From contig CALVEC010000003.1 in assembly GCA_944326475.1 (NCBI GenBank), positions 1 through 64,000 of the forward strand: a DNA stretch of 64,000 nucleotides, read 5' to 3'. Under the pieces are notes generated by a model that saw only the letters and a list, made by a program, of their open reading frames with translations, had not been told where the DNA came from and did no database searches. The position numbers and the translations under genes are program-made. This stretch comes from Candidatus Gastranaerophilales bacterium. Lineage in GTDB: Bacteria; Cyanobacteriota; Vampirovibrionia; Gastranaerophilales; Gastranaerophilaceae. Below, in pieces: positions 10,770 to 15,064 of this stretch; positions within the stretch are counted from its first letter, which is position 1, and the number at the start of each line of letters is the position of its first letter.

Positions 10770-11273
10770 CTATACGTCTAAGAAAATCAGGTTTTTGTTT
10801 ATGGAAAATAGGGGAATATTCAGGTCGCAGACAGCTTTGAACAATTCTCGGTCAGTGATTTTAGAGGAAATTGTCAAAAAATCGGGATTTTCATCGAGCG
10901 CGGTTTTAATGTCTGATTTTGTACAAATTTCCATGCCGGCAACTCCGTGTGCACCTATAAGATGTCTTGCTGATTTTATGTCTATATCATCGTGTTCAAG
11001 CTTTATGCCGTCAGCCTGCAAAATATGTCCGATATCCGCGCGGCTCTGTATAATTAACATGGCATTGTATATGGAACACAGCTCGCGTACTTTTTTGCCG
11101 TATTCAAGAATTTTTCTCGGGCTTATGTTTTTTGTCTGCAACTCTAATATGTCAGCACCTTTTTTCAGTGCACCGGCGATTGCGTCTAAAAAATCATCCT
11201 GAGAAGAAAAATGCTCGGGGTTTGCTATTAGATAAAGCTTTTTGTTTTTTAATAAATATTCGTTTAATTTCAT
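10770..11273 (-). CDS. Shortened thiamine-phosphate synthase-like (ThiE/TenI) protein
   Basis: 167 aa against about 210 for ThiE. The TIM-barrel start is recognisable: K-L-Y-L-I-A-N-P, then A-L-K-K-G-A-D-I-L-E-L-Q-T-K, and L-I-I-Q-S-R-A-D-I-G-x-x-L-Q-A-D-G-I-K-L-E-H-D-D, which corresponds to ThiE's L-x-I-N-D-R-x-D-L-A-x-x-x-x-A-D-G-V-H-L-G-Q-x-D. Several catalytic positions are changed (N-D-R to Q-S-R, G-Q to E-H), and the last strands with the phosphate-binding Gly motif are missing. It is probably not an active TMP synthase and may be a TenI-like remnant or a repurposed fold. Confidence 0.55.
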   Translation of the reverse strand: MKLNEYLLKNKKLYLIANPEHFSSQDDFLDAIAGALKKGADILELQTKNISPRKILEYGKKVRELCSIYNAMLIIQSRADIGHILQADGIKLEHDDIDIKSARHLIGAHGVAGMEICTKSDIKTALDENPDFLTISSKITDRELFKAVCDLNIPLFSINKNLIFLDV

Positions 11274-11279
11274 ACAAAT

Positions 11280-11309
11280 AAATAATAAAACAATTTTTCA
11301 CATAGTCAA
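11280..11309 (-). promoter_or_regulatory. Candidate promoter of the ThiE-like gene (leaderless)
   Basis: On the minus strand TTGACT (11304-11309), an 18-base spacer and TTATTT (11280-11285). The -10 box ends six bases before the ATG at 11273 and no Shine-Dalgarno is present, so the transcript would begin at or next to the start codon. The -35 box lies inside the left arm of the 11-bp inverted repeat described below. Confidence 0.4.
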
Positions 11310-12078
11310 CTGACCGGTTTGTTTGACTCAATGCACTATTCTATTTTTGCGATTATTGTGTAATTTTTAAAAAATTTTCAACTAAAGTATGAAAAAAATC
11401 CAACTAAATAAGAACGGTCATGAGAGGAAAAAGAGATAGAATGATAATATAAGGGATGGAAAGAAATCCTGAAAAACAAATATAAACCAACTCCCTCTCC
11501 CGGGGAGCGGATTTACGGACGGACGACACGACAGAAGGGAGTTAGTCCGGGTAGCGAACAGATTGAGCCGGCTTGTGCAAAGCACAAAAGGTGAAACTCT
11601 GTGAGCGTGAAGTAAATCCAAGACGCGGATTTTGGCAAGTGCGGAGTCGAGTCTGCAAAGCAGACGAGCGAGCACGTCCTGCGAAGGAATTTGATACGAG
11701 TGGATTTTTTGCAGAGCAAAAAGGAACGAGTGAAAAAATTCCGAGCTGCCAATAATCCAAGACAGGGCAGGGGTGAGGGCGTCAATGTCTTTCACTCAGT
11801 AACAAAAAGCAAAGGCAACAACCCGCCGGACACCGGCAAAAAATTAAAGGAGTTCTACAAGCCTGTTATATTCCCTCCCCAGCTTGGGGAGGGGTAGGGT
11901 GGGGAGTGACCCGTAAGGGGGCAACCGGCTACGGGTGTTCTAACAAGCTCTAACAGACGGCTCCGCCAGACAGGGGGACACCCCCTGTAACCCCCGTTTT
12001 GTCTATGCTTTATTCCCTCTCCCCTTGGGGAGCGTCAGATAAAATTACTCCGGCTGTTTGTCTATGGCAGTTGACTAT
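11302..12078. repeat. 11-bp perfect inverted repeats flanking the hairpin-rich element
   Basis: ATAGTCAACTG at 11302-11312 is the exact reverse complement of CAGTTGACTAT at 12068-12078. Outside each arm a second block AATTTTT is also shared in inverted orientation, with a 2- or 3-base gap. This could be a terminal inverted repeat of a 777-bp element. Each arm also contains the TTGACT -35 box of the gene it faces, so divergent promoters with similar sequence are an alternative explanation. Confidence 0.5.
11573..11722. repeat. Three related GC-ARA-GC triloop hairpins
   Basis: Three short palindromes share the core TGC-A(A/G)A-GCA: TTGTGC/GCACAA (11573-11587), GTCTGC/GCAGAC (11651-11665) and TTTTTGC/GCAAAAA (11706-11722). 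The middle one is nested in a longer stem (GTGC...GCAC), and an AAATCC/GGATTT stem lies between the first two. Arms differ while the core is kept, as expected of a repeated RNA or DNA structural unit. Confidence 0.6.
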
Positions 12079-12100
12079 ATAAAAATTTCAATGATAAACT
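12071..12100 (+). promoter_or_regulatory. polA promoter
   Basis: TTGACT (12071-12076), an 18-base spacer and TAAACT (12095-12100). Transcription would start near 12107, only 6 to 12 bases before the start codon. The -35 box is part of the right arm of the inverted repeat. Confidence 0.55.
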
Positions 12101-12112
12101 ATCTATGGGGGT

Positions 12113-15064
12113 ATGAGAGTGAACGATAAAAAAACATTAATATTAATAGACGGTCATGCTTTGGCGTTCAGAAGTTATTTTGCGCTCGAGAGGACCGGTA
12201 TGAAAACGACTGATAAAGTCCCGACCTGGGCGGTTTTTGGTTTTTTTAAAGCTGTATTTGATTTGCTTAAGAACCGGACAATAAAACCTGATGCAATTGC
12301 GGTTGCCTTTGATGTCGGGAGACAGACGTTCAGGGTTGAACATTATCAGGAATACAAGGCGAACAGGGAGACCATGCCTGATACGCTTCGTTCACAGATG
12401 GGGCTTATATGTGAGGGGCTTCAGGCGCTAAATATTCCTATTTACACAAAAGAAGGTTATGAAGCGGATGATGTTATCGGGACAATAACAAAAGAAGCGT
12501 CGCAGCAGGGACACAAAACTCTCATATTAACCGGAGACCAGGATGCTTTTCAGCTTATAGACAGAGACGGGCTTGTTTCGGTGTTGATTCCGTCTAAAGG
12601 TGAACTTATTGAATATGATTGGGAAAAAGTACATGAAAAATTGGGCGTGTATCCTAATCAGGTTGTTGATTATAAGGCGCTTAGGGGCGACACCTCGGAC
12701 AATATCCCCGGAATCAGGGGAATCGGTGAAAAAACTGCGGTGAAGCTTTTGACAAGGTTTCACAACCTTGAAAATATACTGAACAGCACGGATGAGATAA
12801 AAGAAAAAGCGTTGAAACAAAAGCTTATTGACGGCGTGGAAATGGCAAAAATGAGCCAGTTTCTTGCGACCATCAAACGCGATGTAGATATAAATTTTGA
12901 TATAAACAAGACGAGTCTGGAACTCCCTGATGTGGGCAAGGTTGCTGAGTTTTTGAAAAAAGTACAGTTGTTCAGTTTTTTGAAGAATTTGAATGAAATT
13001 TTGAGTCCGTTTGATTACCCCGAAGAAGTGACAAAGGAAATCTCGGAAATTGCAGCAGACCCCAAAAAACCTGCGGTTCAGCCGCAGTCTCAGGGCGGTC
13101 AAATGCAGCTTGGTTTCTGTTTTGAGGTCTCCGGTGCAGGTGAATCTGAGACTAAAAAATCAAAAAAAGAAAAATTAAAAAACCTCCGGCATACGGTTAC
13201 AACTGAAACAGAACTGCAAGAACTGATTAATACGCTAAAGAAACAGACATTGTTTGCGATTGATACGGAAACAACTTCAGTAAACGCTCTGGAGGCTGAC
13301 CTTGTCGGAATTTCAATTGCATATAACCCGTCTGTTCAGGCGAAAAACGGAAGGATTGAATTAAATGATACGGATGCAGAAACAAACTCCTTCTATATCC
13401 CTGTTTTTCACAAATACGGAGAGCAGCTTGAGCTTGATTATGTAGTAAAACAGTTAAAACCGTTGCTTGAAGATGAGAACATCCCGAAAACAATGCAGAA
13501 TGCAAAATATGATGTGAATGCACTTAAGAAATACGACATAAACGTTCAGGGTGTTATTTTTGATACAATGCTTGCGAGTTATGTAAAGGATCCTTCAAGA
13601 AAACACGGGCTGAAAGTGCAGGCGCTGGAGCATCTTGATTATATGATGAAGGACATTGACGAACTTATCGGCAAGGGTAAATCACAAATTACAATGGATA
13701 ATGTCCCGATTGAAGATGCCTCAGAATACGCTTGCGACGACGCGTTTGCAACGCTGGAGCTTACAAAATACTGGGCAAAAAATCTCGATGATGTCGAACA
13801 AAAACTTTTGTATGAAATAGAGCTGCCAACCTGCGAAGTCCTCGAACAGATGGAAGCTGCAGGTATAACGGTGGATGTTGAATATTTAAAACAGCTTTCC
13901 GTTGAGCTGCAAGCAGATTTAAAAAAAGCGGAAGACAAAATTTTTGAACTTGCGGGCTCGCAGTTTAATATAAATTCACCAATGCAGGTCGGACGAATTT
14001 TATTTGATGAGCTCGGGATTAAACCTAAAGGCAAAAAAAGAGGCGCTAAGTCGTTTTCAACTGATGTTAAGGTGCTTTCGGAACTTGCCAAGGAATATGA
14101 AATAGCAAAATACATTCTTGACTACAGACATTTTTCAAAAATGAAAAACACATACGTAGATGCACTTCCTGAGCTTATAAGCCCATGTGACGGAAAAATT
14201 CATACAAGCTATAACCAAACGGCAACGGTTACCGGAAGACTTTCATCTTCAAATCCTAATTTGCAAAATATTCCCGTAAGAAGCGAGCTGGGCAACAGGA
14301 TAAGAAAAGCTTTTATTCCGACAAAACCCGAGGAACAGGTTTTGCTCTCTGCTGACTACTCCCAGATTGAGTTAAGGCTCCTTGCTCACTGTTCAAAAGA
14401 TGAAGCAATGATAAATGCTTTCCGTACCGGAGAGGATATTCATGCGGAAATTGCCGCAAAAATATTTAATGTAACGCTTAATCAGGTCACAAAAGAAATG
14501 AGAAGCCGTGCAAAAGCTGTAAATTTCGGTATTGTGTACGGTCAAACACGATATGGTCTGGCGTCAGCTTTGAAAATCAGTGCGGAGGAAGCGCAGGACT
14601 TTATTGATAAATACTTTGCAACTTACCCGCGCATAAAAGAATATATGGACAAGTCTATCCGGGAAGCTTACAAAAACGGTTATGCAGAGACAATGTTCGG
14701 AAGAAAAAGATATCTTCTTGACGAACTGGTAAGTTCCAACCATCAGATAAAAGAATTTGCTCAAAGAGCGGCGATAAACAGCCCGCTCCAGGGTGCAGCC
14801 GCTGATTTAATAAAAATGGCGATGGTTGATTTGAATAAAAAATTAAAAAATACCGGTTCAAAATCACAAATTCTTTTGCAGGTTCACGATGAACTTATAC
14901 TTGAGGTGTACAAAAACGAGCTTGAGGAAACAAAGCAGCTTGTAAAAGAATCAATGGAGCTGGGACAGCCTTTGGATGTGCCTCTTGTCGTGGATTTTGA
15001 AGTCGGTAAAACCTGGATGCAGAATGATAATGAAGATGAGAGTGTTGAAAATGAAGAAATTTAG
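12113..15064 (+). CDS. polA: DNA polymerase I
   Basis: 983 aa with all three domains. The 5' nuclease is at about 1-300 (D-G-H-A-L-A-F-R-S-Y, G-D-Q-D-A-F, D-N-I-P-G-I-R-G-I-G). An active 3'-5' exonuclease is at about 360-570 (D-T-E, N-A-K-Y-D, Y-A-C-D-D). The A-family polymerase follows (S-A-D-Y-S-Q-I-E-L-R, K-A-V-N-F-G-I-V-Y-G, Q-V-H-D-E-L). It works in repair and Okazaki fragment maturation. The ATG at 12113 is two bases after GGGGG; a GTG at 12119 is better spaced and may be the real start. Its 3' end overlaps the next gene by 14 bases. Confidence 0.97.
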   Translation: MRVNDKKTLILIDGHALAFRSYFALERTGMKTTDKVPTWAVFGFFKAVFDLLKNRTIKPDAIAVAFDVGRQTFRVEHYQEYKANRETMPDTLRSQMGLICEGLQALNIPIYTKEGYEADDVIGTITKEASQQGHKTLILTGDQDAFQLIDRDGLVSVLIPSKGELIEYDWEKVHEKLGVYPNQVVDYKALRGDTSDNIPGIRGIGEKTAVKLLTRFHNLENILNSTDEIKEKALKQKLIDGVEMAKMSQFLATIKRDVDINFDINKTSLELPDVGKVAEFLKKVQLFSFLKNLNEILSPFDYPEEVTKEISEIAADPKKPAVQPQSQGGQMQLGFCFEVSGAGESETKKSKKEKLKNLRHTVTTETELQELINTLKKQTLFAIDTETTSVNALEADLVGISIAYNPSVQAKNGRIELNDTDAETNSFYIPVFHKYGEQLELDYVVKQLKPLLEDENIPKTMQNAKYDVNALKKYDINVQGVIFDTMLASYVKDPSRKHGLKVQALEHLDYMMKDIDELIGKGKSQITMDNVPIEDASEYACDDAFATLELTKYWAKNLDDVEQKLLYEIELPTCEVLEQMEAAGITVDVEYLKQLSVELQADLKKAEDKIFELAGSQFNINSPMQVGRILFDELGIKPKGKKRGAKSFSTDVKVLSELAKEYEIAKYILDYRHFSKMKNTYVDALPELISPCDGKIHTSYNQTATVTGRLSSSNPNLQNIPVRSELGNRIRKAFIPTKPEEQVLLSADYSQIELRLLAHCSKDEAMINAFRTGEDIHAEIAAKIFNVTLNQVTKEMRSRAKAVNFGIVYGQTRYGLASALKISAEEAQDFIDKYFATYPRIKEYMDKSIREAYKNGYAETMFGRKRYLLDELVSSNHQIKEFAQRAAINSPLQGAAADLIKMAMVDLNKKLKNTGSKSQILLQVHDELILEVYKNELEETKQLVKESMELGQPLDVPLVVDFEVGKTWMQNDNEDESVENEEI

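Follow-up and report, generated by a model that had tools for sequence, protein, structure and literature searches.

The window, that is, the whole stretch of 64,000 nucleotides that was analysed and to which positions refer unless a contig is named, belongs to a Gastranaerophilales genome of 2,137,590 bases in 35 contigs. Between the divergent genes thiE-like and polA, it contains a hairpin-rich, non-coding region at 11302–12078, which is composed of dispersed repeats and flanked by a pair of inverted arms (Table 1). The features on which the preliminary description of this region was built, namely an exact 11-bp inverted repeat, a GC contrast, strong stem-loops and the absence of a gene, were all recovered. 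The exact repeat (11302–11312 and 12068–12078) is part of longer, 21-nt arms that are 86% complementary and separated by a spacer of 755 nt; with up to three mismatches allowed, the arm occurs at two sites only in the window, at a chance expectation of 0.00 (100 shuffles). The GC content amounts to 0.45–0.56 in 200-nt windows starting at 11400–11900, versus 0.24–0.31 directly to the left and about 0.39–0.46 in polA. The longest open reading frame inside the region comprises 125 amino acids, is antisense, and is without a Pfam match. In an Rfam scan of the region, no family reached its gathering score, with four weak matches at E ≤ 5, each far under gathering; hence, assignment to a known RNA family was rejected. 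The region folds better than shuffled sequence, with z-scores of −4.38 (RNA, plus strand), −4.00 (RNA, minus strand), and −2.82 (single-stranded DNA, plus strand; 20 shuffles each).

Table 1. Genes, arms and repeat units at the thiE–polA locus (positions in the window).
Feature	Position	Strand	Description
thiE-like (TMP-TENI)	10770–11273	−	left neighbour; genes further left syntenic with the thiE locus of G002/G003
Left arm	11292–11312	−	solo end motif of family R (CAGTTGACTATATGAAAAATT), facing outward to thiE
Unit A	11379–11506	+	first part of the base element, dispersed; at least nine places in own genome
Unit B	11507–11624	+	118-nt structured element (GCGGATTT...AAATCCAAGAC), covarying
Unit C	11625–11763	+	139-nt structured element (GCGGATTTTGGC...TGCCAATAATCCAAGAC), head-to-tail directly after B
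Unit D	11764–11842	+	right-hand portion of the base element, which is interrupted (AGGGCAGGGGTGAGGG...); abuts B where C is missing
Unit E	11847–11905	+	palindromic repeat (TTCCCTCCCCAGCTTGGGGAGGGG...), found in both orientations
Unit F	11906–12034	+	dispersed repeat overlapping the right side of E; own-genome copies vary in extent
Right arm	12068–12088	+	second solo R end motif, facing outward to polA
polA	12113–15064	+	right neighbour; next three genes syntenic with the polA loci of G001–G003

When positions 11280–12100 served as query against the own genome (E ≤ 0.001), at least 72 partial matches were obtained; all own-genome copy numbers are lower bounds, because the best 40 of 142 candidates were scored. 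Further copies, for which the preliminary description had suggested looking, thus exist for the parts, which are dispersed, while a complete second copy of the stretch was not found among the matches listed, none of which, apart from the query itself in the window, extends over the entire query. Next in rank is a match on contig C16, which spans query bases 93–563 at 98% identity; in a local alignment, the copy on C16 is 96% identical over 495 aligned bases, in the same orientation. Since the limits of the matches recur at fixed bases, the units A to F could be defined. Repeated DNA extends over about 11379–12034 (outer BLAST limits, 11352–12044) and includes, in addition, both arms; for the short stretches immediately inside the arms, copies were not found among the own-genome BLAST matches listed. 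Unit A has a sharp left end at (C)CAACTAAAGTATG, with unrelated DNA beyond, and terminates in a CCCTCTCCCGGGGAG hairpin; seven of its places were aligned and two more were inspected. Unit E constitutes the most numerous family of the region among the own-genome matches listed.

Comparison of the individual copies reveals the layers of the region separately within the same genome. On contig C2, A is present without B, and its second hairpin reads CTTCCCCGACTTGGGGAAGG; the empty hairpin in this copy is CTTGGGGAAGG, and contigs C14 and C34 carry A with that hairpin split by a B-like unit. A, B and D are present on C4 and C7, where C is missing, and all four units are found on C16 and in the window. 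Two further A/B copies, on C24 and C32, are cut off by contig ends (first 222 bases of each contig), which means that these repeats interrupt the assembly and that copy numbers are underestimated. The region is, consequently, a nest of separate dispersed short repeats inserted into one another and neither a single element nor a single RNA.

Units B and C are widespread among the relatives. In an initial set including the own genome, a match, mainly to B or C, was obtained in 27 of the 59 genomes searched; under stricter filters, B was detected in 126 and C in 125 of the 192 genomes available for the order, 124 of the B carriers being members of the own family. Carriers range from one match up to the maximum number scored, these numbers again being lower bounds (best ≤19 candidates scored per genome for B and ≤17 for C). 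Several genomes contain head-to-tail arrays with gaps of 0–1 nt (e.g., G049 C177, G048 C17, G170 C8, and G002 C1), and elsewhere B and C occur apart, in tandem and in either order; unit order is not conserved, and their settings are head-to-tail or within palindromes. Matches to the units were not found in the phages, plasmids and E. coli genomes searched, and carriage by phages or plasmids was rejected; upon scanning viral contigs with two exact patterns, the B pattern occurred in one contig and the C pattern in none. An IMG/VR contig of 13.5 kb classed as viral (L233) contains a conserved B core together with B-like and C-like copies according to a profile search, and is possibly a host fragment. 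As a separate observation, a palindromic repeat of the GTCATTGCGAGG...CGCAATGACAT type is located directly upstream of polA in genome G014 (L094), and three copies of C (L194–L196) lie within repeats similar to this type. In open-licence PubMed Central papers, screened by title and opening of the abstract, no description of such repeats of the lineage or of nested palindromic elements was encountered.

The ends of B and of C are constant across copies, and both units are short, non-coding and present in several copies, as is typical of miniature inverted-repeat elements (MITEs). Covariation, which the preliminary description had proposed to examine on the copies, is strong for both units and exceeds that of shuffles and of slid pairings. 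For B, an alignment of 26 copies gives 32 predicted pairs, 17 of them compensatory with both sides changed, and 97.7% of cells paired; the covariation score is 0.373 versus a shuffled mean of 0.119 and ≤0.045 for slid pairings. The corresponding values for C are 19 copies, 21 predicted pairs, 9 compensatory ones, 98.0% of cells paired, and a score of 0.276 (shuffled mean, 0.115; slid pairings, ≤0.109); in either case, none of 500 shuffles reaches the score. Related copies inflate such scores, and the slid-pairing control is, therefore, of importance. The copies under study were selected by score and by eye and are non-random: 26 of 29 distinct near-full copies of B were aligned (L033, L048 and L218, being odd-ended or divergent, were left out), as were 19 of 23 copies of C (without the truncated or deviant L192, L041, L193 and L200), and leaving out truncated or deviant copies biases the result toward a clean structure. 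Among non-Watson–Crick cells, G-T/T-G outnumber A-C/C-A by 15:2 in B and 5:1 in C, an excess that points to the plus strand as the folded one. B and C are, thus, one-strand-biased covarying structures which are spread over the family. The B model also detects C, weakly (E 1.3e-4); B and C are, therefore, probably related to each other.

Insertion contexts were counted for 102 full copies of B (out of 109 distinct ones) and 38 full copies of C (out of 49), at loci chosen by score and genome. With site classes assigned by text patterns, the 102 targets of B comprise 36 sites resembling a tRNA tail or T-loop, 16 TCCTGAA/TTCAGGA palindromes, 13 tandem arrangements with another unit, 9 positions after a half palindrome of the GGG type (CCCTT/GGG type), 1 position following a run of T, and 27 unclassified ones; of the 36 tRNA-type sites, 17 have a tRNA-tail match of at least 85%, and 19 are assigned by GTTC[GA] at the left edge only. 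An intact tRNA gene lies upstream of B on the same strand in 27 of 102 full copies, compared with 1 of 102 for each of two other arrangements (tRNA downstream of B on the plus strand and on the minus strand). The tRNA-to-B distance is 67–101 nt in 25 of these 27 cases (241 and 257 nt in the two others), and the tRNAs concerned are of the Ser, Asp, Leu, Gly, Val, Arg, Tyr, Lys, Asn and Ile kinds. According to the flanks as read, B typically splits a second copy of the tail of the same upstream tRNA at the T-loop, with GTTC[GA] remaining on the left and the remainder of the tail on the right; the automatic tail score is low for many copies, apparently because of differing tRNA end cuts, and these copies were judged by reading their flanks. 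Cases in relatives in which B interrupts a partial tRNA copy at the T-loop include L221/L251, L247, L245, L242, L241, L282 and others. The DNA between tRNA and B contains a terminator-like hairpin; on visual inspection, it also holds a degenerate version of the tail in inverted orientation. Target duplication at B and C insertions appears to amount to 0 to about 1 nt, and a longer direct duplication was not seen in the flanks inspected. In a folding test, the junction was located within a hairpin for 56 of 86 non-tandem B copies (re-dealt flanks: mean 46.7, sd 4.0, max 57) and for 13 of 19 C copies (mean 9.4, sd 1.8, max 13), which modestly backs a preference for palindromes.

The outer arms are not terminal inverted repeats of a 777-bp unit and belong to a separate dispersed family, R. 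The 21-nt arm motif is found at 48 sites in the own genome, with 7 sites for the reversed-pattern control; three genomes of the same genus have 6, 5 and 4 sites, against 2 control sites each. The sequence TTATCGGGGT precedes the motif at 30 of the 48 sites, and the family head TGTCTGAGAGTGA is located within 330 nt at 19 of them, which identifies the motif as the end of a repeat of about 200 bp. The arms of the window lack both features, as do 16 of the 48 sites, some of these probably being chance matches; accordingly, the window arms may represent solo or eroded R ends, or an end that R has in common with another body. Family R itself (L149, L150, L172, and others) appears as a species-specific dispersed repeat of about 200 bp (TGTCTGAGAGTGACC...TTATCGGGGTCAGTTGACTATATGAAAA), some forms of which are shortened internally. 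Each arm contains TTGACT facing its neighbouring gene, where the preliminary description had placed −35 boxes, at 16 nt ahead of TATTAT on the left and 18 nt ahead of the conserved TAAACT of the polA promoter on the right. Conservation of the polA promoter extends from about TATATAAAA to TAAACT; at the place of TTGAC in the window, the same-genus genomes have TTAG or similar, as seen by eye.

Regarding the flanking genes, whose adjacency in relatives the preliminary description had named as a point against it, thiE does not adjoin polA in any of the three same-genus genomes G001, G002 and G003; there, the two loci lie apart, polA having another divergent neighbour and thiE standing beside a 93-aa gene. 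The own genome carries the 93-aa gene on C16 and the old neighbour of polA on C30; the places involved in the break are 10770–12113 in the window, C16:11434–12030 and C30:3457–3750. Leftward of 11.3 kb, genes are arranged as at the thiE locus of G002 and G003, and rightward of 12.1 kb as at the polA locus of G001–G003, which places the break at the nest; judging from gene order, the nest would sit either on a synteny break or on an assembly join. That the copies in the window and on C16 simply underwent reciprocal exchange with each other is unsupported, as the old neighbour of polA is on C30. The differing neighbours of polA and thiE in the three same-genus genomes, along with the placement of TTGACT before TAAACT, suggest that the promoters of both genes may have been rewired, with R ends now supplying the −35 boxes.

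Taken as a whole, the region is best explained as a nest of short non-autonomous repeats, to which we assign a probability of about 0.7. The region had been proposed to be a miniature mobile element or a large structured non-coding RNA, and both proposals survive in part: the repeats are of mobile type with further copies, and structure as well as covariation of B and C are strong, but the parts occur apart and in varying combinations instead of forming one element or one large RNA. A single miniature transposable element of about 777–800 bp with 21-bp terminal inverted repeats would account for the well-matched outward arms that bound a GC-rich stretch, and one more close outward-facing pair among the 48 sites (C6:21114–21378, 240 bp apart) is in line with it; yet the arm motif is nearly always single, the DNA on the inner side of one arm resembles neither its counterpart at the second arm nor, for the most part, the R family, and, there being no complete second copy among the own-genome matches listed, this very improbable reading was rejected. 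That the whole stretch is one large structured RNA, for which strong folding of both strands and the genuine covariation in B and C could be put forward, is even harder to believe, given that B and C are found separately, in tandem and in either order, and that no Rfam family reached its gathering score. The arms, in turn, might be merely two divergent promoters without a repeat origin, considering TTGACT and the −10-like boxes at 16 nt (thiE) and 18 nt (polA). This has little probability in view of the excess of own-genome sites over the same-genus genomes and controls, and of the accompanying TTATCGGGGT and family head; moreover, a −10-like box at 16–18 nt is not enriched over 38 arm copies, and a role of the arms as general promoters was, therefore, rejected.

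Two further alternatives concern the neighbourhood and the mobilisation of the repeats. The thiE–nest–polA join could be an assembly chimera at multicopy DNA in a metagenome-type genome, in which case the repeats would be real and the neighbourhood false. The join coincides with the synteny break against three same-genus genomes, a false join is conceivable given the 96% identical, equally oriented copy on C16, the carrier of the remaining thiE locus, and contigs C24 and C32 start within A/B copies; however, the old neighbour of polA is on C30, where a copy of the query was not found among the matches listed, plausible promoters are kept on both sides, and contig C3 has 168,545 bases, so that we regard a chimera as unlikely. 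REP/REPIN-type repeats mobilised by a RAYT (Y1) transposase would likewise be palindromic, intergenic, numerous and clustered in tandem, and B shows a mild association with Y1 genes (Y1_Tnp in 47 of 126 B carriers versus 14 of 66 others, p 0.024, kinship uncorrected). Against this rather remote alternative, a profile search gave no Y1_Tnp match in the own genome (control matches in 5 of 14 genomes), and Y1_Tnp is absent from 79 of 126 B carriers, including G017 and G166 with at least 19 matches each; furthermore, units of 118–139 nt with a multi-helix fold are unlike REP doublets. Mobilisation by RAYT/Y1 is, thus, not required, and neither is that by an IS110-family transposase, which occurs in 10 of 192 genomes, in 4 of 126 B carriers, and not in the own genome; with Y1 and IS110 transposases as the types searched for, no enzyme was linked to the units.

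For the nest of short repeats, we propose the following assembly. A base element (A and D, with E-type hairpins) was inserted or assembled at this place, B lies inside its hairpin and C at the right end of B, with the E/F repeat beside the base element and two solo R ends flanking everything. In the mechanism that we favour, B and C would move via a folded single strand (ssDNA or RNA) and be inserted by an enzyme encoded elsewhere and acting in trans, with no duplication or one of about 1 nt, into palindromic targets such as hairpin repeats, tRNA T-arm copies and ends of their own kind; the nest may also have accompanied the rearrangement that brought thiE beside polA. Tentatively, and at well under even odds, B and C could be members of a single superfamily of Gastranaerophilales mobile elements that lack genes, fold on one strand and have the ends GCGGATT...AATCCAAGAC. 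These elements would enter the T-loops of duplicated tRNA 3′ tails as well as palindromic repeats and own-kind ends, almost without target duplication, by a recombination or retro-insertion route for which RAYT and IS110 systems offer no known counterpart. At tRNA genes, their footprint would be an intact tRNA followed, after about 75 nt, by a split copy of its own tail.

Several known systems resemble these units in part. MITEs (e.g., ERIC, Correia, and NEMIS) are short, dispersed elements that are non-coding and whose ends pair, a form that B and C share; unlike in MITEs, the pairing ends of B and C are part of a multi-helix fold, and a clear target duplication was not seen. Integrative elements that target tRNA genes have their junction at the T-loop and leave the tRNA 3′ tail in duplicate, as is seen at B sites beside tRNA genes, but the segment duplicated at B is only about 100 nt, and the B ends are identical outside tRNA contexts. 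The small dispersed repeats of Nostoc are very short mobile-type repeats from the Cyanobacteria lineage; they are much shorter than B and C, and the likeness consists in mobile-type repeats within this lineage, without implying kinship. Their name, SDR, occurs in a source (PMC3116915) in which REP, REPIN and BIME repeats are described as short, palindromic, intergenic, non-autonomous, and present in many copies, mosaics and tandem clusters. The repeats of the region are similarly palindromic, intergenic, multicopy, mosaic and in tandem, whereas B and C differ from REP/REPIN by their length of 118–139 nt, the fixed ends GCGGATT...AATCCAAGAC and an elaborate covarying fold, and from the REP/REPIN-RAYT system by the lack of a Y1 gene in the own genome and by sites that include tRNA T-arm copies. 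The insertion sequences IS1397, ISKpn1 and IS621 of the IS110 family insert into REP palindromes and are selective for structured repeats, as described in PMC1525189, and B and C sites in palindromic repeats are comparable in this respect; unlike these insertion sequences, B and C are gene-less and mostly occur in genomes where an IS110-family protein is absent.

Nested palindromic repeats as such are already known. Here, however, a single genome displays the successive layers of two large structured, family-wide element types, of which one, B, interrupts tail copies of about ten tRNA kinds in relatives at near-constant spacing. If B and C are mobile, the responsible enzyme would be other than Y1 and IS110, the usual candidates, both of which were tested. 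In the genome investigated here, their nest marks a rearrangement—or an assembly trap—next to the core replication gene polA.
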